This document shows positions 43,167 to 62,984 of a stretch of 64,000 nt of DNA, piece after piece. The notes beneath the pieces are model-generated. The model was not told where the DNA came from. It did not search any database and was given only the letters and a program-made list of their open reading frames with translations. The translations under genes were made by a program, and so were the position numbers. The stretch is from positions 1 to 64,000 of the forward strand of contig JAAXKQ010000005.1 of assembly GCA_025612245.1 (NCBI GenBank). The letters are read 5' to 3'. Origin of the DNA: Ignavibacteria bacterium (lineage in GTDB: Bacteria > Bacteroidota > Ignavibacteria > Ignavibacteriales > SURF-24). Position 1 is the first letter of the stretch, and each line of letters opens with the position of its first letter.

Positions 43167-45014
43167 ATGAAAGCTTTATATAGATTAGGGGCTCTGGTTG
43201 CTCCTGCCTTATTGGTGGTCTTTTCTATAAGTGTTTCAGATGCTTACGCGCAGGAGCCTGAAGACACGGTTGTAACAGAGGATGTTTATGTAACGGCAAA
43301 GAAAATTGCCGAACTTACGATGGAATCTTCGAAAAATATAACCGTGGTTTCTAGGGAAGACATTCAGAATGCACCGGTTGAGAACCTTCAGGACCTGTTG
43401 GGTTACTTCGCCGGCATGGATGTAAAGAAGCGCGGACCTTCGGGCGTGCAGGCAGACGTAAGCATCCGAGGGGGATCATTTGAGCAGATACTAATCCTCA
43501 TAGACGGGGTGAAGCTAAGTGATCCGCAGACGGGGCATAATAATCTCAATTTGCCGGTGAACATGGACGACATTGAGAGAATTGAAATCCTGAAAGGCCA
43601 GGCCTCGAACATTTACGGCGCCAATGCACTTTCGGGTGCAATCAACATAATTACAAAGAAAGCCAAAGAAAGCTCGCTCCTCTTAAAGGCTTCAGGAGGG
43701 GAGAAAGGCTTTTATAAGGGCAGCTTATCCTTAGCCTATGCGCCCGGGAAACTGTCCAATACGATTTCACTTTCCAGGGAGAAGTCGGCTGGCTACAGGT
43801 ACAATACCGGTTTTGACATCTTAACTGCTGCCTTAAATTCATACCTCCCGTTCAATTCCGGCGGCGGAAAGTTTTCCATTGGCTTTACGGACAAGAAGTT
43901 CGGCGCCAACGGATTTTATTCCGACAGTTATCCCGGCCAGTGGGAGCGCTTAAAAACGGCCTTCTCGTCCTTCAGTATGAACTATGCGATTGAAAACGTC
44001 TCTATCTCCCCGAAGCTTTACTGGCGCAATAACCGGGATAACTACCTGCTCGACTTCTCAAGGCCGGATTTCTACAATAATGTTCATACTACAAATTCCT
44101 ACGGCGCCGAGCTTCAGAGCTCATGGACGCATGAATTCATCAGTGTAGTGCTGGGAGGTGAGATAGGTTATGACGACATCGTAAGCACAAACTTAGGCAA
44201 CCACAACAGAGAAAAAGGCGGGTTTTCGCTATCGGCTGTTGTGAGTCCGCTTGGCAACTTAAAGATTGCTGCCGGTGGTTTCCTGTACAACTACGACAAC
44301 TTCGGCTGGAAGTACTGGCCTGGGCTGGACCTTTCTTACCAGTTTACTGATAACGCAAGCCTTAAGGCTTCGGCAGGCAAATCATTTTGCATTCCGACAT
44401 TTACAGAGTTATACTACAACAGTCCCGCACAGACAGGTAACGCACTTCTGAAGCCTGAGGAGGCCACCTCTTATGAGACAGGGTTTTATTACGCAAGCGC
44501 GTGGATTTCAGGAAGCGTGTGTGTTTTTACAAGGAAAGGCAATGACCTGATCGACTGGATAAGGTATTCTTCTGAGAAGCCCTGGCAGGCAGAAAACATG
44601 ACAAAAACCAGCACTACAGGAGTTGACGTTGATTTTTCCCTCAGGCCCTCTTTATTTGACAGGCGCATGGTGCTCAAGAAAATCAGCCTTGGATACTCTT
44701 ATCTGAATTCAGACCTTAAAACCGGGAATTACCAGTCGAAGTACATTCTGGACCACCTGAGGCACCAGTTTGTTGCAGAAATAATGCACCTGCTTCCTTT
44801 TGAAGTTGAAATGAACTGGGCCTTCAGGTATGAAAAAAGGCTCAACCAGGATGCTTATTTTATTGCTGATTCCAAGCTTACGCGTCAGTTCCGGGATTAT
44901 GAGTTTTTCCTTTCTGCTACAAACCTTTTCAACAAGAATTACCTGGATTTCAGCGGAATACCCATGCCGGGGCGCTGGATTATTGGCGGTCTGAAAGTCA
45001 AGTTTGCCCTTTAG
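43167..45014 (+). CDS. TonB-dependent receptor, BtuB-like
   Basis: The 615-residue protein has a signal peptide (about 1-28) and a TonB-box-like DTVVTEDVYV (about 33-42). Next come a plug domain (VSREDIQNAPVENLQDLLGY, VSIRGGSFEQILILIDGVKL, DIERIEILKGQASNIYGANA cut to blocks) and a beta-barrel ending KVKFAL. Length and plug order fit the BtuB/colicin-receptor group of vitamin B12 or siderophore receptors. It imports a scarce nutrient across the outer membrane. No cobalamin riboswitch or BtuCDF genes are present, so B12 is only one option. It has its own promoter candidate and converges on the Bcr/CflA gene. Confidence 0.92.
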   Translation: MKALYRLGALVAPALLVVFSISVSDAYAQEPEDTVVTEDVYVTAKKIAELTMESSKNITVVSREDIQNAPVENLQDLLGYFAGMDVKKRGPSGVQADVSIRGGSFEQILILIDGVKLSDPQTGHNNLNLPVNMDDIERIEILKGQASNIYGANALSGAINIITKKAKESSLLLKASGGEKGFYKGSLSLAYAPGKLSNTISLSREKSAGYRYNTGFDILTAALNSYLPFNSGGGKFSIGFTDKKFGANGFYSDSYPGQWERLKTAFSSFSMNYAIENVSISPKLYWRNNRDNYLLDFSRPDFYNNVHTTNSYGAELQSSWTHEFISVVLGGEIGYDDIVSTNLGNHNREKGGFSLSAVVSPLGNLKIAAGGFLYNYDNFGWKYWPGLDLSYQFTDNASLKASAGKSFCIPTFTELYYNSPAQTGNALLKPEEATSYETGFYYASAWISGSVCVFTRKGNDLIDWIRYSSEKPWQAENMTKTSTTGVDVDFSLRPSLFDRRMVLKKISLGYSYLNSDLKTGNYQSKYILDHLRHQFVAEIMHLLPFEVEMNWAFRYEKRLNQDAYFIADSKLTRQFRDYEFFLSATNLFNKNYLDFSGIPMPGRWIIGGLKVKFAL

Positions 45015-46452: not shown

Positions 46453-47637
46453 TTAATAATTAGACATTGGCAGCTTGAAGAAATTGCTTAGTACCAGCGA
46501 TGCAGCCCCAACGGCAACGGAAAACTGCTGGTTTTTGCCTGCGGCAATTTTCAGAGTGTTACTCGTTACGGCAAGGACGTTCATCTGAATTGCGTTTTCA
46601 ATGGGATTAATAATAATTTGGCCCAGCTCTGAGATTGTCCCGGTTATTATAAGTGTATCCGGATTCAGAAGTGCAATTGAAGGAGCAATTATTTCCCCTA
46701 CTTTTCCCCCGAACATCTTAAAGATCAAGAGCGCAATTTCATCTCCCTGCCTTGCCATTTCAATCAGGTTTTTGACGTCCAGCTCTTCAGGTGAGGATAC
46801 ATAATCCTTTAGTATTTTTCCTTCCGGAAATCTGGGCCTGACCATGTCAATCATCTGCCTGAGGTTAGGCATGTGGGGGTAAAGTTCTCCGGCACTGAAT
46901 GAGGCTCCGCGATATATGTTCCCCTCCAGAATGATTCCAATTCCGAGTCCTGCAACACTTATATCGAACTCAATTAAAAGCACCATAAAGTTGTTTTTGT
47001 TTTTACCTTCCCCAATCCACTTTTCACCTATCGCAGCGGCGTTTGCGTTGTTTTCAATGAGTATGGGGAATCTGAATCTGTGCTTCAGCTTATCGAGGAG
47101 CTGGAGGTTCAGGTTGAACAGCACTCCCGACATTACGACAATTCCTCTTAGATAGTCTACGATGCCGGTAAAAGCGATGCAGCAGCCCAGGATTTTTCCC
47201 TCATCTATGCCCGAATCCGAGATGATGCTGTTAATTACAAATATAATGCTTTCAACGAGTTCATCGAGGTTATTGGAAACATCCACTTTATAGATATTTT
47301 TTTTGATTGTCTTGCCCGTAAGGTCCAGAATTACAGCCGTCATCTCGCCAATTTCTACGTCAATTCCGATGGCATAGTATGCCTCTGCATTCAGCTGCCA
47401 CAAGGAAGGGCGCACGCCGCCTTTTTCGGTTGCCTCTCCCTTCCCGGTGCTTACAATAAGGGATTTGCAGGAGAGTTCCTTGAGTATGCTGAATATGGTG
47501 GATTTATTCAGGTTCGTCAATCTGATGAGTTCTGAGCTGGAGACAATGGCATTTTCCCTGATCACATTCAGTGTGAGTTTTTCATGGTAGCCTTTTACCG
47601 CCGACGGGTCAAAAGTGAAATGCTTCCTGGTTTTCAT
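46453..47637 (-). CDS. ROK family transcriptional regulator lacking kinase and zinc motifs
   Basis: The 394-residue protein has an N-terminal winged helix-turn-helix (about 20-80; SSELIRLTNLNKSTIFSILKEL) and a ROK domain (about 90-390; IGIDVEIGEMTAVILDLTG, CIAFTGIVD). The usual END.A motif with its catalytic Asp reads ENNAN (Asn197 in the Asp place), so sugar kinase activity is unlikely. The cysteine zinc motif CxCGxxGC is also absent where GELYPHMPNLRQM stands. It is therefore a pure regulator or a decayed paralogue. It is divergent from a second, complete ROK gene across 245 bases, and upstream of the Bcr/CflA exporter on the same strand. Its effector is unknown. Confidence 0.88.
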   Translation of the reverse strand: MKTRKHFTFDPSAVKGYHEKLTLNVIRENAIVSSSELIRLTNLNKSTIFSILKELSCKSLIVSTGKGEATEKGGVRPSLWQLNAEAYYAIGIDVEIGEMTAVILDLTGKTIKKNIYKVDVSNNLDELVESIIFVINSIISDSGIDEGKILGCCIAFTGIVDYLRGIVVMSGVLFNLNLQLLDKLKHRFRFPILIENNANAAAIGEKWIGEGKNKNNFMVLLIEFDISVAGLGIGIILEGNIYRGASFSAGELYPHMPNLRQMIDMVRPRFPEGKILKDYVSSPEELDVKNLIEMARQGDEIALLIFKMFGGKVGEIIAPSIALLNPDTLIITGTISELGQIIINPIENAIQMNVLAVTSNTLKIAAGKNQQFSVAVGAASLVLSNFFKLPMSNY

Positions 47638-47882: not shown

Positions 47883-49082
47883 ATGAACGACGAAAGCTTT
47901 ATTGCCGGGAATGCAAAGGTCGTTAGAAGCATAAACCGGGCAATGATCTTAAATTTAATCCGCACCAAGCAGCCGATCCCAAGGACGGAGATTGCAAGGA
48001 TTACGGGGTTAAATAAAAGTACCGTCTCAAGCATTGTCTCAGGCCTCCTCCAGGAAAACCTGGTCTATGAGCAATTAACCAGCGATCAGAATGTAGGCCG
48101 TAATCCGGTCAATCTTTTCCTCAGAAAAAACAGATATTATGCGGGCGCTATAAATATAGATCGTGAACTGGCCACTCTGGCTGTTGTAGACGTTGACGGA
48201 AGCATTATTGGCACAGCGACTCTTAGAACATCACAAGGAGATCTGCACGGTTTCATCAGGCAGGCTATTGAAGAGATCAAAAGGCTGTGCAGGGAAAACG
48301 AAATCAGGGATCTTGAAGGAATAGGACTGACAATTGGCGGAATTGTAGACCCCGGGAACAGGATTCTAAGCTACAGGCCCGGCAAGCGCTGGGAAGACTT
48401 TGATGTATGCGAAGCAATAAAAAAGGAATGGCCGGAGCTGAAAATTGTTTCAGTTGGCAATGATGCGAAATCCTGCGCCCTGGCCGAGCTTTGGTTCGGC
48501 AGCAGTGCAGCAAATCTTTCGAGTTTTGTATTTGTTTTAGTAGGCCACGCCATAAACTCCGGAATTGTTATCGACGACAGGCTGCTTGACGGCGGCTCGC
48601 AGGCTTCCGGTGAATTCGGGCACATAACAATTATTGAAGGCGGGGAAGAATGCGAGTGCGGAAACAATGGCTGCTGGGAAAAATACGCCTCCGATTCTGC
48701 AACTCTTAAGAGATACCGCGAAAGGTTATCGGGCGCTAAGAATGGCAAAGTGACTCTAAAAGCAGTTATCGATTCGGCAGTTCACGGCAATAAGGTCTCT
48801 ATAGCTACACTGAAGGAAACCGGGTATTATCTCGGACTTGGAATTGCAAATATAATACGTTCCATCGATCCCAAGGCGGTAATTCTTTCAGGAAACATTA
48901 CGCTGGCTTGGGATATAATATATCCCGAAATCATCAAGGTATTAAAAGAAAGGGCATTCTCCGGCAGGGAAAGGGACATTCAGATCATGTTTTCATCGCT
49001 ATCTGAGAATTCAAGGCTGCTCGGGGCAGCAACTCTGGTGATAAAAGAAATATTTGACTATTACAGGATTACTTCAGAATAG
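47883..49082 (+). CDS. ROK family transcriptional regulator (NagC/XylR type)
   Basis: The 399-residue protein has an N-terminal winged helix-turn-helix (about 15-75; IPRTEIARITGLNKSTVSSIV) and a complete ROK domain. Asp194 in GNDAKSCALAE is the catalytic-type Asp. The zinc site is intact: His247 in GEFGH, then Cys257, Cys259 and Cys264 in CECGNNGC. It should bind a sugar, most likely GlcNAc or a GlcNAc phosphate, and repress the genes that follow. It starts about ten bases after GAGG. The TonB-dependent receptor gene begins 40 bases after its stop, so both are probably in one transcript with chitobiose genes further on. The effector is inferred from that context. Confidence 0.9.
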   Translation: MNDESFIAGNAKVVRSINRAMILNLIRTKQPIPRTEIARITGLNKSTVSSIVSGLLQENLVYEQLTSDQNVGRNPVNLFLRKNRYYAGAINIDRELATLAVVDVDGSIIGTATLRTSQGDLHGFIRQAIEEIKRLCRENEIRDLEGIGLTIGGIVDPGNRILSYRPGKRWEDFDVCEAIKKEWPELKIVSVGNDAKSCALAELWFGSSAANLSSFVFVLVGHAINSGIVIDDRLLDGGSQASGEFGHITIIEGGEECECGNNGCWEKYASDSATLKRYRERLSGAKNGKVTLKAVIDSAVHGNKVSIATLKETGYYLGLGIANIIRSIDPKAVILSGNITLAWDIIYPEIIKVLKERAFSGRERDIQIMFSSLSENSRLLGAATLVIKEIFDYYRITSE

Positions 49083-49122
49083 ATTAAGTAATAGCATCCA
49101 GTAAAAACGTGGAGAGGAAAAA

Positions 49123-52053
49123 ATGCGAAGAATTTACTCTTTTCTAAGTCTTTTGCTCATATTTCTCACTGTTTTAGCATCCAGGGCCCACGCACAGGCC
49201 AACGTTGAAGGAGTCATTCTGGACTCTCAGACCAAGGAGCCTCTCCTGGGAGCGACAATCATACTTGTAGGCACTAGCAAAGGAGCTACGAGCAATATCG
49301 AAGGCAAATTTGCCATCAGGAACGTGCCGGCAGGATCCTATACAATCCGTACTACATTTATCGGTTATGTTGAAGCAAGAAGAGATATTGTAGTAAAAGA
49401 CAATGCAAACTTGGAGCAGAATTTTGCGCTCGATCCCGTAACCATAGAAGGGCAGGAAGTGGTTGTAACCGGGCAGGCGCTCGGGCAGAAACAGGCCATA
49501 AATGAGCAGCTTGCCGCAAATAACATACTGAACGCCGTTTCCTCGGCCAGAATACAGGAACTTCCGGACGCAAATGCTGCAGAATCGATAGCCAGGCTTC
49601 CCGGCCTTTCCATCCTGAGAAGCGGTGGCGAAGGCAACCAGGTCGTTGTCAGGGGTCTTTCACCAAAGTATAACCAGATTACAATTGACGGCGTGCAGAT
49701 GTCCGCCTCAAACCCGAACGACAGAAGTGCCGACCTGAGCATGGTTTCGTCAAACATGCTGGAAGGGATACAGGTTTCAAAGAGTAACACCGCCGAAATG
49801 GATGCCGACGTAATTGGCGGAACGGTAAACTTCGAGCTCAAAGAGGCAAAGCAAAGCGATACGCGAATACCTTTTATATTTAATTTCCTGGCTCAGACAG
49901 GCTACAATGGCCTTTCCAATGCATACAACAAGTATAATAATTATAAGTACGTAGGAAGCCTTGAGAACAGGTTCTCTGACGGCCTTCTGGGGGTCTTTGC
50001 GCAAATTGACGTTGAAAGAAAGAATCTTACGTCCAACGAGCTGGGGGCTTCGTACTCATATTTCCAGCAGGACCCAAGGAGTCTGACCGACTTCAGCACC
50101 ACCGGTCTTACTCTTTCGGACATTCCGAGGGACAGGCAGAGAATAAATGGCGCCCTGGTGCTGGATTACCAGGTGCCTGACGGAAAAATTAAACTTACAA
50201 ACTTCGTCAGCTCCGGGAACACTGATGCGCGCAGCAGGCAGGAGTATTTTGACATACTGAACACGCAGTACAGCTATTCCCTTTCTTACTCAAAAAGCAA
50301 ACTCAGCATACTTACAAATTCGCTCGACTATAAGCAGTCTTTACCTGTTTTTAATGTACATACCAGGCTGTCCCATACTTATTCCGAGACAAAGGATCCC
50401 AACGACTGGGCGGTAACGTTCATGCAGAGAGATCAGACGGGGCTAAACCAGTTCATTGCCGCTAAAAACGTCAATCCCCAGGAAATCCAGAGATCGGCTA
50501 CTCCAAATGTCAACGATACATACTTAAGAAGCATTCAGACAACCAACAGCTTTTCAAGGGAGCGCGCCCTGGAAGCAAAACTTGATATCGACCGTGATTT
50601 CAACTTTTCAGATCTTATCAGTGCAAACTTTAAGATGGGCGGAAAATTCAGGCATCAGACTCGCTCCTACGACTACAACCTTATTGGCCAGGGCGGAGGT
50701 TCATTTATAGATCATAGCGCAAGTCCAATTACCTCTCTAATTCTCGGTACCTTTGGCATTCCGCCAAGCGATAATCCGGACGAATTGCCGATGACATATT
50801 TTGTCGACCCGGGCTTCAACTATGGGGAATTCTTAGGAGGCGACTACCAGATGGGAGCCCCGATGGATTTTGCAAAAATAAATGCCATGGTGGATCTTGT
50901 AAAGAAAAACGCGTATCTCAACGTCCCGGCCTATGCCCCGGACGACTTTAATTCGAGAAGTTTCGATTATTCGGGTTATGAAGACAGGAGTGCTTTTTAT
51001 GTGATGTCCACCATGAACATCGGACAGCAGATTACATTTATTCCCGGCATCCGCTATCAGAATCTTAAGACCAGCTACAAGGCTGCGCAGGGACAGGCAA
51101 ATACTACGGCTACGGTTTTATATCCGCACATGGATACAACAGTCGTACAGAACCATCCCTTCTGGCTGCCAAGCGCATCGCTCAGGTACAAACCGTTTTC
51201 ATGGTTCGACATACGTCTTTCCTACTCTCAGACGCTTGCATATCCAGACTATAATGCAGTTATTCCGAGGATCTCGGTTAATGGTACTGCCATTGCATAT
51301 AATAACAACAGACTGAAGCCTTCACGCTCGGCAAATTACGATGTTTACCTTTCATTCTATGACAACTCGATTGGGCTTTTTACAGTTGGCGGCTTTTTGA
51401 AGAGAATTGACGACCTTATTTTTGCTCAGAGAATTCACGTTACCGGAAACCAGGCCGCGCAGTACGGGCCTCCTTCAAGTGTATTTAAGCCGGTTCCTAC
51501 GCAGACATATTTTGTTAGTACCTATATTAACAGTCCTTTCAGGATCGATGATTACGGGATGGAACTTGACTGGCAGACTCATTTCTGGTATTTGCCGGGA
51601 CCTTTATCGGGTTTGGTTTTCAACGTCAACTACACGCATATTTTCTCTAAAGCAACGTATCCTTATCTGCATCAGGTAAAGTCAGGCCGTTTTGTAACTT
51701 ATATTGATACCTCTTATACCGAACGCCTATTAGATCAGCCGAATGACATTGTCAACATGTCGCTGGGCTTTGACTATGGCGGCTTCTCAGCCAGAGTATC
51801 GATGCTTTACCAGACACACGTTTTTACGGCAACGGATCTCTACCCGCAGCTAAGGACCAATACGTCGGCCTACAGAAGGTGGGATCTTGCGGTCAAACAG
51901 GACCTCCCGTGGTTCAATCTCCAGGTCTACGGGGATATCAACAACATTAATGGTGCAAGAGATGTCAGCGTAATCCAGGGCGGCGGCGGGGTGCCCAGAT
52001 CACTTCAGGACTATGGTATGACGGCTGACGTGGGTGTACGCTTCAAGTTATAA
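49123..52053 (+). CDS. large TonB-dependent receptor of the chitobiose locus
   Basis: The 976-residue protein has a signal peptide (about 1-25, ending HAQA) and a carboxypeptidase-like beta domain (about 26-105; GVILDSQTKEPLLGATI). The plug domain (about 115-245) has LPDANAAESIARLPGLSI and QVVVRGLSPKYNQITIDGV, followed by a 22-strand-type barrel ending ADVGVRFKL. The plug wording is that of the sugar-importing receptors of the Caulobacter MalA type rather than SusC. It should import chito-oligosaccharides across the outer membrane, judging from the chitinase and phosphorylase genes downstream. No SusD-like lipoprotein accompanies it. GGAGAGG precedes the ATG. Confidence 0.92.
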   Translation: MRRIYSFLSLLLIFLTVLASRAHAQANVEGVILDSQTKEPLLGATIILVGTSKGATSNIEGKFAIRNVPAGSYTIRTTFIGYVEARRDIVVKDNANLEQNFALDPVTIEGQEVVVTGQALGQKQAINEQLAANNILNAVSSARIQELPDANAAESIARLPGLSILRSGGEGNQVVVRGLSPKYNQITIDGVQMSASNPNDRSADLSMVSSNMLEGIQVSKSNTAEMDADVIGGTVNFELKEAKQSDTRIPFIFNFLAQTGYNGLSNAYNKYNNYKYVGSLENRFSDGLLGVFAQIDVERKNLTSNELGASYSYFQQDPRSLTDFSTTGLTLSDIPRDRQRINGALVLDYQVPDGKIKLTNFVSSGNTDARSRQEYFDILNTQYSYSLSYSKSKLSILTNSLDYKQSLPVFNVHTRLSHTYSETKDPNDWAVTFMQRDQTGLNQFIAAKNVNPQEIQRSATPNVNDTYLRSIQTTNSFSRERALEAKLDIDRDFNFSDLISANFKMGGKFRHQTRSYDYNLIGQGGGSFIDHSASPITSLILGTFGIPPSDNPDELPMTYFVDPGFNYGEFLGGDYQMGAPMDFAKINAMVDLVKKNAYLNVPAYAPDDFNSRSFDYSGYEDRSAFYVMSTMNIGQQITFIPGIRYQNLKTSYKAAQGQANTTATVLYPHMDTTVVQNHPFWLPSASLRYKPFSWFDIRLSYSQTLAYPDYNAVIPRISVNGTAIAYNNNRLKPSRSANYDVYLSFYDNSIGLFTVGGFLKRIDDLIFAQRIHVTGNQAAQYGPPSSVFKPVPTQTYFVSTYINSPFRIDDYGMELDWQTHFWYLPGPLSGLVFNVNYTHIFSKATYPYLHQVKSGRFVTYIDTSYTERLLDQPNDIVNMSLGFDYGGFSARVSMLYQTHVFTATDLYPQLRTNTSAYRRWDLAVKQDLPWFNLQVYGDINNINGARDVSVIQGGGGVPRSLQDYGMTADVGVRFKL

Positions 52054-52241
52054 CTTCCACTTTGTTTTTTGCCGCTGTTATCCGGCAGCTTGTTCTTTGG
52101 CATTCCTGGTAATTAGGTATTCGTAATTGTTCTGTTCCTTTTCTCTGTTCTTTTCTTTGGTAGTAGTGTTTATAAGAAGCGTTCAGTAAATAAATGTGAT
52201 TCCTTACTAACATAAACCAAAAACAGGAAGGGGGTACTTTT

Positions 52242-53975
52242 ATGAAATCATTAGTGTCTACGTTATTGGTTACTTTTGTGGTCTTAATTTCTGGTCTTTT
52301 GAATGTCACCTACGGAGCAAATGATACGCTTGTTGTTTATGCAAATTCGGACAAGACTCTCGACCAGATAATAAGTGCTGATGTTACAAGCGGCGGTGCA
52401 CAGGTGCACAAAGCATACAAGCTTGTTTCAACGGATACTACTTACATATTCAGTGCTGCCATTACGGCAACCTCAGATATCGCAATAGTCGGTAAGCTTG
52501 GCGCAGACGGCAGGCCTCCCTGCATTCAGCCTGACGTGCTACCGGATGCAAGTGTTCCGGGAACCCTGCTTATACTCAATGCGAATGGCATAAAAGCACG
52601 GCTGGAGAACCTCTACATTACGGGCCAGTCAATAACGGGTTCCGTAAACTCTCCAAATGCAATCGGGGTGATAATAAAAGGTGACAATGTACGCCTTGAG
52701 GTAAACAATTGCGTCTTTGAACAGTGGGATCAGTATGCGCTTAATTATCAGGGAAACATGGACAAGCTGTTCGTCTACAACACCAAATTCAGGAACATGG
52801 CTAACAGTGCCGGCCAGTGGTACGTCGGTGAAGCCGTCCGTAATTCTGGCGGAAATGGAACAGACTCCCTGGTAATGAAAAACAATACTTTCTTCTGCAT
52901 AAATGCTTATGCAGCCTGCCCGGTAACGGGAAAAATATGCAATTACTTCGAGTTCGTTCATAATGATGTTGTCTGGATGTTCAAAAATCCGTTGTTTGCT
53001 TTTAACGTTACAAAAGCAAAGATCAACGACAACATTTTCTATGCTGCATATTCTGGCGGTATCAGCAAGTCTGAATACCCATGGTGGGATCAGCTGCGCT
53101 CTCCGGAAATCGGTTCTATAATTGACCTGGATACGCTGAATGTGGCAATTGCCAAGATATTCGACTCGCAGGATTCTACAAATGCCAATGTCAGGATGCT
53201 TGCTGAAGCAAAGAGGACGGTTGAGGTAAAGAACAATGCATATTTCTGGCCCACGAAACTTACAAATTACTGGAAAGCCTGGAACGATACTGCTCATACC
53301 GACTCGATTTACACGCCAAGCTGGATGAACCAGAGAACGACAAACATGTTTGCAAATAAGACTACCTGGCCCGGCTTTACGGAATCTGGCAACCAGAATG
53401 TGGATCCGACATTCGGAGCCTCAATTGACTCTGTAATGGATAACAAACCGGAATTCGGTGTGGGATTCCTGGAGTACTTCAAAGCAGTCAGGACGGCTAA
53501 GATCTCAACCGAAGTCTGGGGCTATCACCTTCAGCACGTAGCTTCAGGCAGCAACTGGGTTCCTCAGTGGCCGCTGCCCGAGGCAAAGGACCTGAAGTAC
53601 ACCAATGCAACTCTTCTTACCGCGTCAACAGACGGAAGGCCGCTTGGTGATTTGAACTGGTTTGGTATGGTTTCCTCTGTTGAGGAGAAATACAGCAAGA
53701 CTACACCACAGAGCTTTATACTTTATGAAGCCTATCCGAATCCGTTTAACCCGTCAACCAAAATTAAATTCGAACTGCCGGAAAACGGAAACGTCACATT
53801 GAAAATATATGACATTCAGGGAAGGCTGGTTACCACGGTGCTGAACAATGAATTAAAGAACCGCGGAACTTATGAGTACAAAGTTGACATGGATAAAATG
53901 GCAAGCGGCATTTACCTCTATACACTGCAGTATAATGGCAGAATGCAGACAAAGAAAATGGCTTTATTGAAGTAG
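52242..53975 (+). CDS. secreted beta-helix protein with type IX sorting domain
   Basis: The 577-residue protein has a signal peptide (about 1-26, ending TYGA). Residues about 30-460 read as a right-handed beta-helix (ARLENLYITG, VRLEVNNCVFEQW, LVMKNNTFFCINAY, AKINDNIFYAAY), similar in layout to polysaccharide-binding or lyase-like proteins of Bacteroidota. The last 85 residues form a type IX sorting domain with AYPNPFNPSTKI and a KKMALLK end. It is probably on the cell surface and, from its place in the locus, may bind chitin or help present oligosaccharides to the receptor. No catalytic residues were identified. An excellent ribosome site, AGGAAGGGGG, precedes it, and a hairpin follows. Confidence 0.85.
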   Translation: MKSLVSTLLVTFVVLISGLLNVTYGANDTLVVYANSDKTLDQIISADVTSGGAQVHKAYKLVSTDTTYIFSAAITATSDIAIVGKLGADGRPPCIQPDVLPDASVPGTLLILNANGIKARLENLYITGQSITGSVNSPNAIGVIIKGDNVRLEVNNCVFEQWDQYALNYQGNMDKLFVYNTKFRNMANSAGQWYVGEAVRNSGGNGTDSLVMKNNTFFCINAYAACPVTGKICNYFEFVHNDVVWMFKNPLFAFNVTKAKINDNIFYAAYSGGISKSEYPWWDQLRSPEIGSIIDLDTLNVAIAKIFDSQDSTNANVRMLAEAKRTVEVKNNAYFWPTKLTNYWKAWNDTAHTDSIYTPSWMNQRTTNMFANKTTWPGFTESGNQNVDPTFGASIDSVMDNKPEFGVGFLEYFKAVRTAKISTEVWGYHLQHVASGSNWVPQWPLPEAKDLKYTNATLLTASTDGRPLGDLNWFGMVSSVEEKYSKTTPQSFILYEAYPNPFNPSTKIKFELPENGNVTLKIYDIQGRLVTTVLNNELKNRGTYEYKVDMDKMASGIYLYTLQYNGRMQTKKMALLK

Positions 53976-53997
53976 ATTAGATCATAACACTCCTTTA

Positions 53998-54025
53998 GGG
54001 GCTGCTTCAAGACAAGAAGCAGCCC
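53998..54025 (+). terminator. hairpin after the beta-helix gene
   Basis: A 10-bp perfect stem, GGGCTGCTTC (53999-54008) with GAAGCAGCCC (54016-54025), has a 7-base loop, then ATTCTTATG. It may end or weaken transcription before the permease gene. Confidence 0.65.
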
Positions 54026-54156
54026 ATTCTTATGTTGAAATTAAATTGTTTTTCGGACATAACAATTTTGGGAAATAATGACCTTAAACTTATTGACTTT
54101 GGAGATTAACCCCGGAGAGCATGCTGGAACAATAATAATCTTTTTCAGGTAGTAAA

Positions 54157-55464
54157 ATGAATAATATAACAAAGAAAACACTTAATCCTGCCTTCTGGGT
54201 GACAACGCTTTATTTTGCCGAAGGTCTCCCGTTTGTTGCAGTTGCAACGGTTTCAGTTTTAATGTATAAAGACATGGGGCTTTCCGACTCGCAGATAGCC
54301 TTTTTTACGACACTGATTGCATGGCCTTGGACGCTGAAGCCTTTGTGGGGACCAGTGCTGGAAATGTTCAAAACCAAGAAGTATTTTGTAATTGCAACAC
54401 AGTTTATTGGCGGCGTCACGTTCGGGCTACTTGCCCTGACGCTTCCGTTGCAAGGTTTTTTTAAGTATTCACTGGTCCTTTTTGCAATAATAGCCTTTAA
54501 TTCGGCCACGCACGATATTGCCGCCGACGGACTTTATATAAATGTGCTCTCGGAAAAGGAACAGGCAAAATTTGTCGGCTGGCAGGGGGCGTTTTACAAC
54601 ATTGCAAAGGTTTTTTCGCAGGGTGCGCTGGTCTATATTGCGGGCAGGCTCGAACTCAGTGCCGGTGTAACGCAAGCCTGGATGATAGTAATGGGGATAT
54701 TCGGGCTGGTTCTTCTGTGCCTGAGCCTTTATCACATGAAGGTGCTTCCGGCAGGCAAGCCTGCCGAAAGGGTAGGAAGCCTGAAAGAGGCATTTGGGAC
54801 TTTCTGGGATGTGGTCAAAACATTTTTTAAGAAAAGGAACATCTGGTGGGGCATAACATTCATAGTTTTATACAGGTTTGCCGAGGGACAGGCAGTTAAG
54901 ATTGTACCCCTTTTTCTGCGCTCAAGCCGACTGCAGGGGGGACTAGGCCTTAGCACATCCGAAATAGGGATAATCTATGGCGTATTCGGGGCAGCGGCAT
55001 TTGTGCTGGGTTCAATACTTGCGGGCTACTTTACCGCAAAGCGCGGCCTGAAAAATTCCTTGTTCACACTTGCATGTTTCTTTAACATTCCGTTTGCGGT
55101 TTATGCCTTCCTGGCAATAACCGCCCCGGAGAACTTTTTCATAATAGGCCTGGCCGTTGTATTTGAGTACTTTGGTTACGGCTTTGGCTTCGTAGGACTC
55201 ATCCTGTTTATGATGCAGCAGATTGCCCCGGGAAAATACAAGATGGCGCACTATGCGTTTGCCACAGCGCTGATGAATCTTGGATTCATGATCCCGTCGA
55301 TGATAAGCGGATTTTTATCCGACTTCCTGGGTTATAAAACCTTCTTTATATGGGTTGTTATTGCAACAATTCCTTCATTTCTGATTACCTGGCTGGTGCC
55401 TTTTACAGAACATGAGGATGAGGGCAAGACAGAAGAGCGCCTTAAGGCCAGCATTAATGAGTAA
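54157..55464 (+). CDS. AmpG-like MFS permease, probable chitobiose importer
   Basis: The 435-residue protein has about twelve membrane helices and the AmpG-type start YFAEGLPFVAVATVSVLMY (about 18-36). It also has FFTTLIAWPWTLKPLWGPVLE and the FNSATHDIAADGLYINVL block, which is very typical of AmpG muropeptide permeases. AmpG carries GlcNAc-anhydroMurNAc peptides; a relative that carries chitobiose fits this locus. It should bring the disaccharide across the inner membrane with protons. The chitobiose phosphorylase gene starts 37 bases later, so the two are likely co-transcribed. A role in peptidoglycan recycling is the alternative, but no AmpD/NagZ genes are near. Confidence 0.88.
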   Translation: MNNITKKTLNPAFWVTTLYFAEGLPFVAVATVSVLMYKDMGLSDSQIAFFTTLIAWPWTLKPLWGPVLEMFKTKKYFVIATQFIGGVTFGLLALTLPLQGFFKYSLVLFAIIAFNSATHDIAADGLYINVLSEKEQAKFVGWQGAFYNIAKVFSQGALVYIAGRLELSAGVTQAWMIVMGIFGLVLLCLSLYHMKVLPAGKPAERVGSLKEAFGTFWDVVKTFFKKRNIWWGITFIVLYRFAEGQAVKIVPLFLRSSRLQGGLGLSTSEIGIIYGVFGAAAFVLGSILAGYFTAKRGLKNSLFTLACFFNIPFAVYAFLAITAPENFFIIGLAVVFEYFGYGFGFVGLILFMMQQIAPGKYKMAHYAFATALMNLGFMIPSMISGFLSDFLGYKTFFIWVVIATIPSFLITWLVPFTEHEDEGKTEERLKASINE

Positions 55465-55501
55465 AATAATTTAAGACTGAATAAATTTCAGGAGATATAT
55501 A

Positions 55502-57904
55502 ATGAATTACGGTTATTTTGATGACTTGAACAGGGAATATGTTATTGAGCGCCCTGATGTTCCGGTCTCCTGGACCAACTATCTGGGGGTAGAGGATTTC
55601 TGTACGGTAATTTCGCACAATGCAGGCGGCTATTCTTTTTATAAATCACCCGAGCACCACAGGATCACGCGCTTCCGGCAGAATGGAATTCCGCTCGACC
55701 GTCCCGGACATTACGTTTACATACGCGACGATGAAACGGGAGAGTTCTGGACGGTATCATGGCAGCCCGTGGGAAAAGATTTTACGAAAGCCAAATATAT
55801 AACCAGGCACGGGTTGTCTTATTCAAAGTTTCAGTGCAACTATAACGGCATAGAAGCCGAACAGCTTGTGTTTGTGCCTTTAGGGGAGGATATGGAGCTC
55901 TGGGACCTCAGCATTAAAAATGCTGGCAACAAGGAGCGGAAGCTGAGCGTATTCAGCTACGTGGAATTTTCTTATCATCATGTTGAAATAGATAATCAGA
56001 ACCTGCAGATGAGCCTTTATGCAAGCGGTTCAAATTATAAAGATGGCATAATTGAATACGACTTTTTTTATGAGCCGTGGACGTATCACTTCTTTGCCTC
56101 CAGCTTTGAGCCCGATAGCTTTGACGCCGTTCGCGACACTTTTATCGGCAGCTATCATAGCGAGACAAACCCCGTGGCAGTTGAAAACGGAATATGCAGT
56201 AACTCTTCAGAACTCGGAGGCAACCACTGTGCTTCACTTCATAAGAAGCTGAGGCTTGAGGCGGGTGAGGATATAAGGCTCATTTTTATGCTTGGCGTCG
56301 GCTCCAGGGAAGAAAAGGGATACGCTGCCAAGGAAAAGTACACGAGAAAGGAAAATGTGGATGAAGCCTTCCGGAAGCTGAAAGAATACTGGGATAGTAA
56401 GCTTGCCATATTCCAGTGCTCCACTCCTCACGCCGGAATGAACACGATGATAAATATCTGGACGCTTTACCAGGCAGAAGTTTGCGTAATATGGTCGAGG
56501 TTTGCCTCATTTATTGAAGTCGGTGGGCGCGTTGGCCTGGGCTACCGCGATACATCTCAGGATGTTATGGGGGTTGTACATACAAATCCGAAAAAGACCA
56601 GGGAAAGAATAATACAGCTTTTAAGGGGGCATACCTCTATGGGCTTCGGGCTTCACCTCTTTGACCCGAACGTATTTGAGCCCGAGGAAGACAAGCTGCC
56701 CGGAGTCAAGCTGCCTACTGTGGTTCCGACACCAAGCCCGCAGGATATAATCCACGGCATTAAGGACGTGTGTTCCGATGACGCACTCTGGCTCGTTGCC
56801 TCAATATGCGAGTGGATAGTTGAAACCGGCGACTTTGAGTTCTTTAATTATGTGGTCCCATACGCAGATAAAGGCGAAGGAAGCGTTTATGAGCACCTGA
56901 AAAAGATACTGGACTTTTCTGCCGAGTACGTCGGGAAAAACGGCATCTGCCAGGGCTTAAGAGCAGACTGGAACGACTGCCTTAACCTGGGTGGCGGCGA
57001 AAGTGCAATGGTTTCTTTTATGCATTACTGGGCAATTAGTATTTTCCTTTCGGCGGCAAGGAAACTCGGGCGTGAGGATGACGTCAAAAAGTATACTGAA
57101 ATGGCAGAGAAAGTCAACGAGGCCTGCCAGAGGGAGCTCTGGGATGGTGAATGGTATTTAAGGGGATTTACAAAAAAAGGGATCAAGATAGGTACCAGTA
57201 AAACAGAGGAAGGGAAGATATTCCTGAATTCACAGAGCTGGGCCGTATATTCAGGCGTGGCAGATGCGGAAAGGGGAGTTAAATGTATGGATGCCGTCGA
57301 CAGGTACCTTTCCTCCAGGTACGGGCTTCACCTCGTCTGGCCGGCGTATTCAAAGCCTGACGATGACATAGGCTATATTACCAGGGTATACAAGGGCATA
57401 AAAGAAAACGGATCCATTTTCAGCCATCCAAACCCATGGGCCGTTATTGCGGAATGCAAGCTCGGGCGCGGAAGCCGTGCAATGAAATTCTATGATGCAA
57501 TACTTCCTTATAACCAAAACGACATTATTGAAACCAGGCAGGCTGAACCATATTCATATTGTCAGTTTATAATGGGACGGGACCACACGGCTTTCGGAAG
57601 GGCACGCCATCCATGGCTTACCGGGACGGCAGGATGGTTCTATACGGCGGTTACCAAGTACATACTTGGAATAAGGCCGGATTACGACAGCCTTGTAGTT
57701 GACCCGTGCATTCCCGGGGACTGGCCGGGCTTTGAGGTTAAAAGAAAGTGGAGAGGCGCTCTTTATAAGATAAAAGTTCAAAATCCCGATGGGGTTGAAA
57801 AGGGAGTTAAATGCATCACGCTTAATGGAAAGACCATTGAAGGACCAATCCCTGTTCAGCCTGAAGGAACTGAAAATGAAATTGAAGTTACTATGGGCAA
57901 GTAA
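55502..57904 (+). CDS. chbP: GH94 N,N'-diacetylchitobiose phosphorylase
   Basis: The 800-residue protein matches the Vibrio-type chitobiose phosphorylase along its length: MNYGYFDDLNREYVI, TVISHNAGGYSFY, FIEVGGRVGLGYRDT, QGLRADWNDCLNLGGGES, FSHPNPWA and GRDHTAFGRARHPWLTGT, each close to the family pattern. Asp492 in DWNDCLN falls at the same number as the general acid I recall for the Vibrio proteolyticus enzyme. It splits chitobiose with phosphate into GlcNAc-1-phosphate and GlcNAc in the cytosol, saving an ATP. Length is normal and there is no signal peptide. Cellobiose phosphorylase is a less likely alternative, given the chitinase next door. Confidence 0.93.
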   Translation: MNYGYFDDLNREYVIERPDVPVSWTNYLGVEDFCTVISHNAGGYSFYKSPEHHRITRFRQNGIPLDRPGHYVYIRDDETGEFWTVSWQPVGKDFTKAKYITRHGLSYSKFQCNYNGIEAEQLVFVPLGEDMELWDLSIKNAGNKERKLSVFSYVEFSYHHVEIDNQNLQMSLYASGSNYKDGIIEYDFFYEPWTYHFFASSFEPDSFDAVRDTFIGSYHSETNPVAVENGICSNSSELGGNHCASLHKKLRLEAGEDIRLIFMLGVGSREEKGYAAKEKYTRKENVDEAFRKLKEYWDSKLAIFQCSTPHAGMNTMINIWTLYQAEVCVIWSRFASFIEVGGRVGLGYRDTSQDVMGVVHTNPKKTRERIIQLLRGHTSMGFGLHLFDPNVFEPEEDKLPGVKLPTVVPTPSPQDIIHGIKDVCSDDALWLVASICEWIVETGDFEFFNYVVPYADKGEGSVYEHLKKILDFSAEYVGKNGICQGLRADWNDCLNLGGGESAMVSFMHYWAISIFLSAARKLGREDDVKKYTEMAEKVNEACQRELWDGEWYLRGFTKKGIKIGTSKTEEGKIFLNSQSWAVYSGVADAERGVKCMDAVDRYLSSRYGLHLVWPAYSKPDDDIGYITRVYKGIKENGSIFSHPNPWAVIAECKLGRGSRAMKFYDAILPYNQNDIIETRQAEPYSYCQFIMGRDHTAFGRARHPWLTGTAGWFYTAVTKYILGIRPDYDSLVVDPCIPGDWPGFEVKRKWRGALYKIKVQNPDGVEKGVKCITLNGKTIEGPIPVQPEGTENEIEVTMGK

Positions 57905-57921
57905 AAAAAATGCGGAGCATT

Positions 57922-59535
57922 ATGAAGTCATTTCCTGCAATATTGTTGCTTTCGGTATTTATAATGCATGTCCCCATAAAGGCACAGCAGGTGAAGGAAA
58001 TCATTGCCTATTATCCTGAGTGGGGAGCCGAGAACCTCCGATATACTGTAAAGGACCTTGAGAAAAGCGGAGCGGCAGATAAACTTACCACGATCATGTA
58101 TGCTTTCTGCTACCCGGCACCCGACAGTATGGGTAACATTGTTCCTATGTTTATGAATGCTTATGCGGCTTACCAGCAGCCTTATTCGGCCGGGATGAGC
58201 ATTGACAGCGTTGCCGACGACAGCGCAAAAGGGCAGGTGCTGATGGGGCAGTTTAACCAGCTGAAGAAACTTAAAGCCCGTTACCCCCGGCTCAGAGTGA
58301 TGATATCAATTGGCGGCTGGACGGGCTCGGTTTATTTTTCAGATGCTGCACTTACAAAGGAAGCGAGGGAGAAATTTGTTGACGCAGTTATCGACAGGTA
58401 CATCCTGGGTGACCTGCCCGTTGTGGAAAACGGAGCAGGAGGCAAAGGCGCTGCCAAAGGGGTTTTTGACGGGATTGACATCGATTGGGAATACCCCATA
58501 GCGGGCGGCAATGAAGGAATCCATAATAATCCCGCCGATAACGATAACTGTACGGAGATGCTTGCACTTTTCAGGAAGAAACTTGATGAGGTAAGACCGG
58601 GGCTACTGCTGACTGCCGCGGTTCCAACCGCATCCAGGCTCGTGCACAACTTTAACGTCAATAAGGACCAGGAGTACCTGGACTGGTACAATGTAATGAC
58701 CTATGACCTCAGGAGCTCATGGAGCAGTGTAACAGGCCACCACACAAACCTGTTTTCGACATTAAGCGCTTTGCTGCCGGATGGGATGAAGGAATCTATG
58801 GACTATGCAGTCCGTTTATTCCGGGATTCTCTGGGGGTTGCAAATAAAAAGATTGTCCCCGGAGCAGCTTTCTATGGAAGGGGCTGGATCACTAAAGATA
58901 CAATAAACTGTGGCCTCTACAGGCAGGGGACGGTTGCACCGGGAGTGCATGAGAGCGGGTACAATTACTATTCCGATCTATCAAAGCTCCTGCAAAATGA
59001 CTACTGCTACAGGTGGGATGACCTCGCCATGGCGCCAACAATATTTGACCATAAAAGCAAGGCGTTCTGGACGTTTGATGACCCGAAGTCGGTTGCGCTT
59101 AAGTCACGGTACGTAGATGCATACGACTTAAGGGGCATTATGTTCTGGGAAATAAGCGGCGACGACTCAACGGGAAGCCTCTTAAATGCTATCTACAGAG
59201 CCGACATGATGGTTGATGCTTCGACGGTGAACCTGAAGGCAAAGTATGAAGGGACGGATAAGGTCAGGGAGATTAAAATTACGAGTCCCGTCAGTTCTGC
59301 TAATTTAACCCAAGGCACAAGCCTGGTCATTACGACCGATGGAATCAGTAACGCGGACAAGCTGATAAAAGTGGAATTCTTTGTGGACAATAAATATCTG
59401 GGATCCGATACAAATGTGCCATTTAGCTGGGCCTGGTTTAATATTTCCAAAGGGCAGCACGAGTTAAGCGTGGTTGGAACTGATGCCAGGGGCCGAAAGG
59501 TAAATTCTGACAAAGTAATTGTAAAAGTTGAGTAA
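57922..59535 (+). CDS. secreted GH18 chitinase with C-terminal Ig-like domain
   Basis: The start is placed at ATG 57922, where GCGGAG lies upstream and a signal peptide follows (MKSFPAILLLSVFIMHVPIKA). The product has 537 residues. The GH18 barrel (about 25-430) shows SIGGWTGS and the catalytic DGIDIDWEYP with Glu190 as acid. NVMTYDLRSSW and FWEISGDD complete the site. Residues about 445-537 form an Ig-like domain (IKITSPVSSANLTQGTSL...), often used for substrate contact. It cleaves chitin, probably releasing chitobiose, outside the cytoplasm. It starts 17 bases after chbP, so the two are co-transcribed. It lacks a type IX sorting domain, so it may stay in the periplasm and act on imported oligomers. 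Confidence 0.93.
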   Translation: MKSFPAILLLSVFIMHVPIKAQQVKEIIAYYPEWGAENLRYTVKDLEKSGAADKLTTIMYAFCYPAPDSMGNIVPMFMNAYAAYQQPYSAGMSIDSVADDSAKGQVLMGQFNQLKKLKARYPRLRVMISIGGWTGSVYFSDAALTKEAREKFVDAVIDRYILGDLPVVENGAGGKGAAKGVFDGIDIDWEYPIAGGNEGIHNNPADNDNCTEMLALFRKKLDEVRPGLLLTAAVPTASRLVHNFNVNKDQEYLDWYNVMTYDLRSSWSSVTGHHTNLFSTLSALLPDGMKESMDYAVRLFRDSLGVANKKIVPGAAFYGRGWITKDTINCGLYRQGTVAPGVHESGYNYYSDLSKLLQNDYCYRWDDLAMAPTIFDHKSKAFWTFDDPKSVALKSRYVDAYDLRGIMFWEISGDDSTGSLLNAIYRADMMVDASTVNLKAKYEGTDKVREIKITSPVSSANLTQGTSLVITTDGISNADKLIKVEFFVDNKYLGSDTNVPFSWAWFNISKGQHELSVVGTDARGRKVNSDKVIVKVE

Positions 59536-61873: not shown

Positions 61874-62917
61874 TTAACTTAAAGTTTTTCTTACTCTTTT
61901 CTTATTGTAGCCCCTTTCGCCATAGGGCTGAAGTTTCTCAAGCCACATATCTTCAAGAACCTCAAGGTCTTTTGCATAATTGTATGTTGCAGGGTAGTCT
62001 TTTTTGGGCTCGAGCGTATCTAATATTTCAAACGCCACCCCGTTTTCACCCAGTTCGTTCCAGGCCTCCTGGAGCTCTTTAATTTCATGAAGGCCCCATT
62101 CTTTCAGGGCAACCATGTGAAGATTCCTTTTCGCTTCCAGGTTCTTTCCGCTTCCGACAAAGATTTTGCCGTTCTTCAGGTTTTTTAACTGGTAGATTCC
62201 CATGGTAGTGTGAGGGTTTTCCTTGTAGTTTCTCACTATTTCTTTTCTTTTTGCCGTATCCATTTTCTTCTCCCTATCTGCCGGCGCCGATAACTTGCTT
62301 GGCGTCTTCTCCAGGCCGGATTTTCTCTGGAATTCGGGGGCATCCGTGCCTGAATTGTTAATGTATTTGGGGTTTACGCGGTAGCTTCCCCTTTCCCTTT
62401 GCATCATGTTTTCATCTATAAAGTAACGTCTCAAAGAGCAGTAGTCTTCGTTTATCTCCTCCAGCATGGAATCAATTTGCTTTTCGGGATATGTCATGGT
62501 TTTCTCAAAGAGCTTTATTATCTCCTCCAGGACAATGAGGCGTTTTTTGTGCTGAGAGGGAATTCTCAGGAGCCGTCCATTGCTGAAGTATGTAGAAATT
62601 ACCTTTTCTCTGTACTGTTTCATCCTTTCATCCTGCAAAGGTTTTTCCGCGTTTTCAAACGAAACGATGTCTTTGAGTGTATTTGAAAAAATATCCTTAT
62701 TTACCGAAAAGACGGCGTAATACTGCTCCTTTTGCCTTAAAACGAGCCCGGAATTTTCCAGCTTTTTCATGTGAAAGCTGACGGTCGATTCCGAGAGGTT
62801 AAGGCGTTTTGCCAGTTCCTCAAGGTACTGCGGCTTTTCCATGAGTGAGTTTACGATTAAAAGCCTGGAAGTATCTCCAAGCGCCTTCATAATATTAATA
62901 CTTTCGTTTATTTCCAC
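61874..62917 (-). CDS. ArsR-type HTH / DUF2087 / GIY-YIG fusion protein
   Basis: The start is placed at GTG 62917 (ATG 62890 is possible), giving 347 residues; a TTG at 62983 would add an unlikely hydrophobic tail. Three domains follow. An ArsR-like winged helix (about residues 8-88 from the GTG) has MKALGDTSRLLIVNSL and LSESTVSFHMKKLE. A DUF2087 domain (about 113-183) has RLLRIPSQHKKRLIVLEEI and YCSLRRYFID. After a polar linker comes a GIY-YIG-type domain (about 236-338) with GIYQLKNLKNGKIFVGSG, a following Arg and His, a Glu-rich helix ending WLEKLQPYGERGYN. The GIY-YIG residues needed for DNA cleavage appear kept. It probably binds DNA; whether it cuts is unknown. A palindrome lies just upstream. 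Confidence 0.85.
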   Translation of the reverse strand: MEINESINIMKALGDTSRLLIVNSLMEKPQYLEELAKRLNLSESTVSFHMKKLENSGLVLRQKEQYYAVFSVNKDIFSNTLKDIVSFENAEKPLQDERMKQYREKVISTYFSNGRLLRIPSQHKKRLIVLEEIIKLFEKTMTYPEKQIDSMLEEINEDYCSLRRYFIDENMMQRERGSYRVNPKYINNSGTDAPEFQRKSGLEKTPSKLSAPADREKKMDTAKRKEIVRNYKENPHTTMGIYQLKNLKNGKIFVGSGKNLEAKRNLHMVALKEWGLHEIKELQEAWNELGENGVAFEILDTLEPKKDYPATYNYAKDLEVLEDMWLEKLQPYGERGYNKKRVRKTLS

Positions 62918-62984
62918 GAAGAGAATTCCAATTGTTATTACTTTGACAAATATCGAAGTAAATATAATAAATAACTTTCTCAAT

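Follow-up and report, generated by a model that had tools for sequence, protein, structure and literature searches.

How does a bacterium bring chitin oligosaccharides across its outer membrane when the locus for their use carries no SusD? The question is raised by a stretch of 64,000 nucleotides from an Ignavibacteria bacterium (assembly GCA_025612245.1, contig JAAXKQ010000005.1, positions 1 to 64,000), hereafter the window, in which positions 47883-59535 hold six genes. A first-pass annotation, made from the letters of the window, had described them as a complete uptake and phosphorolysis path for chitin lacking SusD. All six are open reading frames (ORFs) that are indeed open and lie on the + strand where that annotation had placed them, with spacers of 40, 188, 181, 37 and 5 bases, and its family labels (a ROK regulator, a MalA-type TonB-dependent receptor, a protein with a tail of the type IX secretion system (T9SS), an AmpG-like permease, a GH94 enzyme and a GH18 enzyme) agreed with Pfam and NCBIfam models when checked against them. 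The standard way of spotting polysaccharide utilization loci is to look for SusC/SusD. The main new point of our analysis is that the protein encoded directly after the receptor, a T9SS-tailed right-handed beta-helix protein, regularly accompanies receptors of this family and is a candidate for the role of SusD. With a probability of about 0.6, we read the locus as a unit for the uptake and phosphorolysis of chitin oligosaccharides in which the receptor/beta-helix pair would replace SusC/SusD at the outer membrane.

The locus carries neither SusC nor SusD

The receptor gene (49123..52053, +) encodes a TonB-dependent receptor of the TonB-Xanth-Caul (MalA) type with a CarboxypepD_reg-like N-terminal domain. 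The protein matched TIGR01782 at 371 bits, passing the cut-off of 310, and scored 65 bits with the SusC/RagA model TIGR04056, whose cut-off of 368 it did not reach; it was the only over-cut-off TIGR01782 match found in its genome. Its predicted model (predicted local distance difference test, pLDDT, of 82) has the fold of a TonB-dependent transporter (TBDT), with 8blw, 8p97 and 9gbc among the fold matches and no SusC among those listed. The genome does encode one true SusC (578 bits), together with a SusD-like protein of 428 residues, on contig C36 and away from the chitin locus, and a profile alignment of the window receptor with this SusC spanned only 209 N-terminal columns. Two further TonB-dependent receptors are encoded in the window, at 43167-45014 (+) and 32888-35272 (+); they are BtuB-like below the cut-off and generic, respectively.

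SusD was not found in the unit, and the beta-helix protein had no SusD match in Pfam. Across the whole genome PF14322 gave no match and PF07980 a single partial one (36.5 bits, contig C36). The claim of a chitin locus without SusD stands. SusD was also rare in the set of 59 related genomes, where PF14322 matched in 6 (4 over the cut-off) and PF07980 in 12 (11 over the cut-off). The part of a paddy-soil study that was available reports that susCD was hardly ever found in the gene clusters of Ignavibacteriales and was absent in Ca. Kapabacteria, and names no replacement there (PMC10576277).

Receptor and beta-helix genes occur together in two-way searches

A genome search with the full alignment of the beta-helix protein (A1) gave matches in 59/59 genomes with 23 candidates scored per genome, mostly to T9SS tails, and was replaced by a search with an alignment of the core (A2). 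With A2, at least 41 of 296 genomes of the phylum matched at E<=1e-15; at most 5 candidates were scored per genome, so that these counts are lower bounds, and the window's own genome yielded one beta-helix core among the 5 of its 17 candidates that were scored. From the phylum matches, mostly the stronger ones, 40 regions were fetched, and the other homologues came from loci of relatives. Hidden Markov models (HMMs) for the beta-helix, the receptor and the tail were built from the fetched loci and used at thresholds of our own choice (90, 100 and 30 bits). One duplicate was dropped from the resulting 121 beta-helix rows; the remaining 120 do not include the window's own pair, and related loci among them are not independent of one another.

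Results showed that 110 of these 120 homologues had a receptor gene of the window's type on the same strand, at most 700 bp upstream and with a median gap of 112 bp, a proportion that is possibly flattering because the sampling of loci was not random and mostly stronger matches were fetched. Nearly all of the paired beta-helix proteins (107/110) had a T9SS tail. Five of the ten unpaired copies were accounted for by edges or rearrangements, namely a contig or locus edge (L064, L054), two overlapping ORFs (L215), a reversed gene order (L153) and an interrupted receptor (L262). The other five are real exceptions: in L240 and, twice, in L242 the T9SS copy is an extra or a solitary one, and L221 and L228 lack the T9SS tail. 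The latter two proteins (L221, 6884-8404; L228, 7300-8907) have a beta-helix core with neither tail nor adjoining receptor and possibly belong to a differently exported branch. In L262, at 5666-6538, the receptor gene is split at an ORF of 290 residues that lies on the opposite strand and reads like part of an insertion sequence transposase, and the beta-helix gene is open.

The reverse search gave a similar picture. When receptors were chosen by TIGR01782 alone (at least 280 bits; n = 35 in eight genomes), 34 of the 35 were followed by a beta-helix-core protein, a count that includes L262, where a receptor fragment of 82.7 bits, below our threshold, ends 25 bp before the beta-helix gene, and L250, where the partner is cut by the contig end. 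The sole exception, G047:C12:360785 (L253), has an apiosidase-like protein as its next large ORF. TIGR01782 matches below 280 bits stand outside this count, and among them L145, L153 (reversed) and L169 have a beta-helix partner. TIGR01782-type receptors may use other T9SS partners too. Weaker TIGR01782 receptors are followed in L264 (5816-8761) and L265 (4323-5960) by T9SS proteins without the beta-helix core.

Outside chitin loci, the pair was found next to genes for GH3 plus GH125 (L155), GH3 (L150), GH2 beta-galactosidase-like (L142, L209), Melibiase-like (L141, L143) and GH2 exo-glucosaminidase (L144, L147, L164) enzymes. The beta-helix protein is therefore not chitin-specific, since it is paired with the receptor family amid several other enzyme sets. 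It had been proposed as a new chitin-handling part; its presence in the chitin locus is confirmed, and a restriction to chitin has to be given up. Judging from these neighbourhoods, the pair appears to be a general module of Ignavibacteria and their relatives, re-used for other glycans, of which the chitin locus would be one instance.

Receptor and beta-helix protein diverge in parallel

The distances of 100 receptor/beta-helix pairs were strongly correlated (Mantel r 0.895), with 0.12 as the best of 1000 permutations. To remove the species tree, the comparison was restricted to paralogous pairs of the same genome, for which the pooled r was 0.88 over 117 comparisons in 13 genomes; the best of 2000 partner shuffles within genomes reached 0.72. 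Single genomes scattered around this value, with r of 0.92 (7 pairs), 0.86 (8 pairs) and 0.52 (8 pairs). Parallel divergence of this kind would be expected of partners.

A hairpin is frequent after the pair

Directly 3' of the beta-helix gene lies a G+C-rich hairpin with a perfect stem of 10 bp (53999..54025, +). We looked in the gaps of the fetched loci for hairpins with a stem of at least 8 bp and 4 G-C pairs and found one in 55/91 gaps after the beta-helix gene versus 53/460 other same-strand gaps. The gaps between receptor and beta-helix genes had one in 6/98 cases and those after other T9SS genes in 14/47, and part of the enrichment may belong to T9SS genes generally. Likewise, 69 of 110 stretches downstream of the beta-helix gene contained such a stem, versus a mean of 5.2 in single-base shuffles. 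Note that the claim rests on this comparison across loci because terminator-like sites in the window are at chance level (12 found versus 15.0 expected); promoter-like sites are so as well (21 found versus 20.9 expected). At the gathering score no Rfam family or riboswitch was found in the window, and inverted repeats of at least 8 nt were listed neither around the regulator start nor before the beta-helix gene. With a hairpin behind it, the pair resembles a dicistron that lies within longer runs and has a 3' end of its own, and the hairpin at 53999-54025 is likely to be an attenuator or the 3' end of the receptor/beta-helix transcript.

Predicted fold and kinship of the beta-helix protein

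The beta-helix gene (52242..53975, +) encodes a protein whose T9SS tail matches PF18962 at 48 bits. The tail was present in all 26 aligned members of the family, of which 10 had a Pfam Beta_helix match at E<=0.1, and the translocon protein SprA scored over the cut-off in 8/8 genomes tested, the window's genome included. By these signatures the protein is a T9SS cargo. An AlphaFold2 model computed with 26 sequences (mean pLDDT 85.4) shows a right-handed beta-helix, a region around 300-478 that contains several helices, and a beta tail domain, in agreement with the original label. The top VIA-align match was the polysaccharide lyase family 6 (PL6) enzyme 7dmk (Z 30.6, root-mean-square deviation 2.7 Å, 299 residues), on residues 424-747 of its chain. 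Further PL6 matches were 7o7t and 7o77, which are one protein, and 8bwk (Z 23.9-24.5, residues 440-756), and the non-PL6 rows listed had Z of 22.7 or less. Overall, the fold matches listed were PL6 lyases, other polysaccharide-active enzymes and phage depolymerases. Sequence searches of the PDB with A1 and with A2 yielded nothing beyond T9SS tails and weak matches, either to beta-helices or by chance. The model thus points to a fold shared with the C-terminal beta-helix domain of PL6 lyases, which in itself implies no function. According to the accessible portions of two papers, this is a second domain of unknown role for which an aid to substrate access has been proposed (PMC11381880), and in BcAlyPL6 it has been proposed to fix the substrate and to have a weak activity of its own (PMC8618178).

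A second kinship emerged from profile comparison. The beta-helix core aligned collinearly with DUF4957/DUF5123 (hhalign: 97%, 212 columns, E 8.1e-11 for a single comparison); the Pfam gathering score was not reached for either family, with 2/32 and 1/32 members matching at best E-values of 0.012 and 0.72. The protein is probably a distant relative of the DUF4957/DUF5123 lipoproteins. In other classes of the phylum, the six loci that we read all had a large TonB-dependent receptor-like ORF, then SusD, then a DUF5123 protein; the large ORF had 1074-1087 residues and a weak match to our receptor HMM in 5/6, and SusD was over the Pfam cut-off in 6/6. A related scaffold would then be an accessory of SusD in some classes, and here the beta-helix gene directly follows the receptor gene and SusD is missing.

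Does the beta-helix protein take the place of SusD?

Our best reading is that the beta-helix protein serves as a surface glycan-binding partner of the receptor, a lid or platform in SusD's place, a role for which we postulate both binding and a complex. In its wider form, to which we give somewhat less than even odds, this reading would hold for Ignavibacteria, Calditrichota and relatives: a surface-held T9SS beta-helix protein might do SusD's work, joined to a MalA-type receptor in a complex that is stable or gated by the substrate; it would derive from a scaffold present in other classes only as a SusD accessory, and the arrangement would explain how SusD-poor bacteria take up large glycans. 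If this is true, glycan loci in several poorly cultivated lineages could be found by a new marker, studies of TBDTs would gain a new type of partner, and it could be tested directly whether oligosaccharide uptake generally requires a lid or binder on the receptor.

Besides the selective fetching of loci, a number of results speak against this reading. Three genomes with 3 pairs each gave an r of 0.24 (G015), 0.28 (G047) and -0.89 (G314). The nearest neighbours of the two partners agreed in only 67/100 pairs, and they crossed the label chitin/other in 12/100 beta-helix proteins and 16/100 receptors, for which reason chitin specificity is not demonstrable from sequence alone. The beta-helix proteins of L141, L143, L144, L147 and L149, for instance, are among the nearest to the copy in L021, a locus of the same genus (49-54% identical); an amino-sugar branch is therefore possible, the labels being mixed nonetheless. 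Moreover, adjacency and co-divergence are also expected of a cassette that is inherited together. As to the fold, the E-value ranking of Foldseek was poor for the model and did not put PL6 at the top. As to the kinship, the full-length alignment gave a weaker DUF5123 link (86.5%, 85 columns), and the hhalign controls were poor, with 18% and 27% for unrelated beta-helices (single sequences) and 3% for a single DUF5123 sequence. Finally, L304-L307, from the window's own order, have DUF5123 proteins with T9SS tails and do not show the order SusC-SusD-DUF5123.

The same fold matches could be read as those of a surface enzyme, which as a polysaccharide lyase, esterase or hydrolase would trim the glycan ahead of its uptake, given that many lyases and esterases are right-handed beta-helices and that the C-terminal domain of BcAlyPL6 is reported, in the text accessible, to have weak lyase activity (PMC8618178). 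The match is, however, to the C-terminal domain and not to the N-terminal active-site domain (7dmk 424-747; domain layout as in PMC11381880 and PMC8618178). In addition, the family accompanies GH18/GH94, GH2 exo-glucosaminidase, GH3 plus GH125, GH2 beta-galactosidase-like and Melibiase-like enzymes, sets so varied that a single catalytic activity of the family would be odd, and chitin offers no uronic acid to a lyase. We therefore regard an enzymatic role as unlikely.

A structural or adhesive surface protein carried in the cassette, next to a receptor that works alone as Caulobacter MalA does, would be compatible with the beta-helix copies lacking a receptor (L240, L242, L221, L228) and with the fact that adjacency alone is no proof of function; nor is a need for such a partner known for Caulobacter-type TIGR01782 receptors. 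We consider it improbable in view of the two-way pairing (110/120 and 34/35), the parallel divergence within genomes and the hairpin after the pair, and we retain the surface glycan-binding partner as the preferred reading.

Enzymes and permease of the putative chitobiose route

The GH94 enzyme (55502..57904, +; GH94 606 bits) had been called almost identical in pattern to chitobiose phosphorylase, and this description proved apt: phmmer matched it over its full length to the chitobiose phosphorylase 1v7v (1204.6 bits, residues 1-799), far ahead of the next PDB match, the N,N'-diacetylchitobiose phosphorylase 8bou (549 bits), and of cellobiose phosphorylases (523 bits or less). Asp492 and Trp490 have the same numbering as in 1v7v, with the WND stretch kept, and Val629/Glu635 align with Val631/Glu637 of 1v7v, in which we take Asp492 to be catalytic and Val631 to belong to the N-acetyl pocket. 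The enzyme is thus a likely chitobiose phosphorylase, 1v7v being a far better match than other solved GH94 structures. The GH18 protein (57910..59535, +; PF00704 210 bits), which has a Big_7 domain, contains the motif DxxDxDxE as DGIDIDWE at residue 187, and 4 of its first 5 PDB matches are named chitinases; it is likely to be a chitinase. By reading, signal peptides are present on the GH18 protein, the receptor and the beta-helix protein, and none is visible on the GH94 enzyme, a predicted cytoplasmic protein. The permease of the major facilitator superfamily (MFS) between the pair and the GH94 gene (54157..55464, +) scored 139 bits with the AmpG subfamily model TIGR00901, below its cut-off of 350, and is for this reason labelled AmpG-like rather than AmpG. 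We propose it as the inner-membrane chitobiose importer; homologues 63-77% identical to it adjoin GH94 in beta-helix loci outside the genus.

On these identities the following route can be proposed. GH18 would cut chitin outside the cell or at the outer membrane, and the T9SS-exported beta-helix protein, held at the surface, would bind the chitin oligosaccharide beside or over the receptor, which would use TonB energy to draw it into the periplasm. Chitobiose would enter the cytoplasm through the AmpG-like permease, and there GH94 and phosphate would convert it into N-acetylglucosamine (GlcNAc)-1-phosphate and GlcNAc, and a putative mutase/kinase step followed by NagA and NagB would finish the route.

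The last enzymes are encoded elsewhere in the window's genome: NagB at C14:125891 and NagA at C14:131394, with two more over-cut-off NagA copies on C36 and C21. Contig C9 has two GH20 matches, one of them strong (337 bits, 694-residue ORF). A dedicated GlcNAc-1-phosphate mutase was not recognised in this genome; three phosphoglucomutase/phosphomannomutase (PGM/PMM) proteins are present, the closest being 32% identical to the mutase that adjoins GH94 in L109 (Thaumasiovibrio, Vibrio-type). The word complete was thus too strong for the locus: its phosphorolytic part holds, and with NagA, NagB and GH20 on other contigs and the mutase not recognised, a complete path is plausible at the level of the cell and not established for the locus alone. 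The contrast with typical Bacteroidota chitin loci likewise holds for SusC/SusD and is weak for beta-hexosaminidase, since GH20 genes are present in this genome and in some of the sister loci; we dropped the absence of a hexosaminidase as a hallmark of the locus.

Conservation of chitobiose phosphorylase loci

A scan of GTDB contigs with the GH94 protein, from which the best 80 of 320 relatives were kept, gave 79 loci at 61-79% identity; with two more from G001 and G047, 81 loci were compared. The gene counts over these loci were obtained with a greedy ORF picker, which overlooks some genes (one of them the MFS gene of L055), and on stretches cut at contig ends. A beta-helix gene was present in 26/81 loci and, together with the receptor, in 25/81. 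The named ones among the beta-helix chitin loci belong to metagenome-assembled genomes (MAGs) titled Ignavibacteria/Ignavibacteriales, Melioribacteraceae, Bacteroidetes, Calditrichota/Calditrichia, KSB1 or plain bacterium. Of all 81 loci, 31 had GH18-type genes, 9 GH20, 4 GH20-like and 8 NagB-type genes, and 6 amidohydrolases of the NagA kind. A phosphoglucomutase-type gene occurred in 23/81 loci and, in the stretch covered, in 0/26 beta-helix loci, 17 of which had GH18 within that stretch. A similar gene order recurs, with orthologues of the chitobiose phosphorylase, across Ignavibacteria, Bacteroidetes, Calditrichota and KSB1 MAGs; GH18 is not a fixed member, as it does not stand beside GH94 in the same-genus genome G001. 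In G040, on the same contig as L035, the run extends through GH2 exo-glucosaminidase, MFS, ROK, GH20 and an SSF symporter to NagA and NagB, which ties the gene set to amino-sugar use.

Another point on the unfavourable side is that a GH125-type (alpha-mannosidase) gene stands beside GH94, just after the chitobiose phosphorylase gene, in four sister loci (L046 12540-13976, L051 12716-14158, L052 4493-5935 and L054 12666-14108, the last of which was scanned). These neighbours hint at the use of N-glycans in those four genomes, and because of them chitin is not the sole possible source of chitobiose. Even so, it is doubtful that the window's locus serves another GlcNAc glycan, such as the N-glycan core or peptidoglycan fragments, despite these GH125 genes and the GH3 plus GH125 set next to another pair (L155), the resemblance of the permease to the muropeptide permease AmpG and the fact that GH18 also includes endo-N-acetylglucosaminidases, as the locus has no GH125, its GH18 is closest to chitinases, and related loci carry GH20 and exo-beta-glucosaminidase genes. 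Chitin use appears to be the likeliest reading of the locus, and its phosphorolytic character is likely to be right.

Several other genes were observed in these loci. In L090 (7835-9988) a nucleotidyltransferase is fused to a phosphoglucomutase beside the chitobiose phosphorylase gene, and a direct route from GlcNAc-1-phosphate to UDP-GlcNAc is possible there. Long mutase genes (718-769 residues) lie by the chitobiose phosphorylase gene in L090, L058, L068, L073, L076 and L096, from Anaerolineales and Acidobacteria-type MAGs. A sugar nucleotidyltransferase-like gene is found by a NagB-type gene in the chitobiose phosphorylase loci L037 (12520-13785) and L066 (4447-5733); the L037 copy, the one scanned, matched NTP_transf_4 and Hexapep. 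Proteins of one family, about 780-810 residues long, are found repeatedly in the chitin loci (L033 14123-16474, L039 6185-8614, L045 6322-8706, L055, L060, L062 and L069); of 3 copies scanned, two had no Pfam match and that of L033 a sub-cut-off match to Glucosamine_iso (23 bits). Lastly, in five chitin loci (L024 2255-3499, L042, L044, L055 and L060) a gene on the other strand, immediately ahead of the receptor gene, encodes a protein of about 415 residues (cluster 20), and both copies scanned were without a Pfam match.

Regulators in and around the locus

The first gene of the unit (47883..49082, +) encodes a NagC-like ROK regulator with a winged helix-turn-helix (HTH) domain (PF00480 164 bits; HTH_IclR); its top NCBIfam match was NagC at 200 bits, under the cut-off of 650. 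ROK genes precede the TonB-dependent receptor in several orthologous loci. A second ROK-family protein (46453..47637, -; ROK 105 bits) is encoded divergently and is a possible co-regulator whose membership of the unit is uncertain; this neighbour is also kept in locus L021 of the same-genus genome G001. Farther along the window, an odd regulator fusion (61874-62983, -) joins an ArsR-type HTH to DUF2087, and its C-terminal part reads like a GIY-YIG-type segment.

Comparison with known systems

The Vibrio-type chitobiose operon shares an orthologous GH94 with the locus (1v7v; L109 and L110, 62-63% identical), but there the GH94 gene is flanked by GH20 and phosphoglucomutase-type genes, among further genes, and the stretch covered has no receptor/beta-helix pair. 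The two-domain PL6 alginate lyases (7dmk, 7o7t/7o77, 8bwk) provide, with their C-terminal beta-helix, the best fold matches of the beta-helix protein, which differs from them in lacking the N-terminal PL6 domain and is only 15-17% identical.

Our searches of open-access papers, which did not extend to subscription papers and preprints, brought up no earlier description of the receptor/beta-helix pair, and the available parts of PMC4704652, PMC7618045 and PMC5317091 do not name one. In concept, BtuB-BtuG, XusA-XusB and other TBDTs whose surface-exposed partner is not SusD are close, and the fold matches of our receptor include 8blw, 8p97 and 9gbc; their partners, to go by the entry titles, are lipoproteins for B12 or siderophores. 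The DUF4957/DUF5123 lipoproteins share with our protein a probable distant beta-helix kinship and a similar neighbourhood, behind SusD in 6/6 loci, and in the available part of a B. theta table a DUF4957 protein adjoins a TonB-dependent receptor (BT1025-26; PMC10434189). Unlike the protein studied here, which has a T9SS tail and no SusD in its locus, they have by reading a lipoprotein-type N-terminus and come in addition to SusD. From SusC/SusD itself the pair differs in both members, the receptor being of the TIGR01782 type and its partner a beta-helix protein with a T9SS tail and no match to SusD. In its layout it is much alike: the gene of a TonB-dependent receptor is followed by that of a surface protein, amid glycosidases, a permease and a regulator, and some genomes carry several such pairs.

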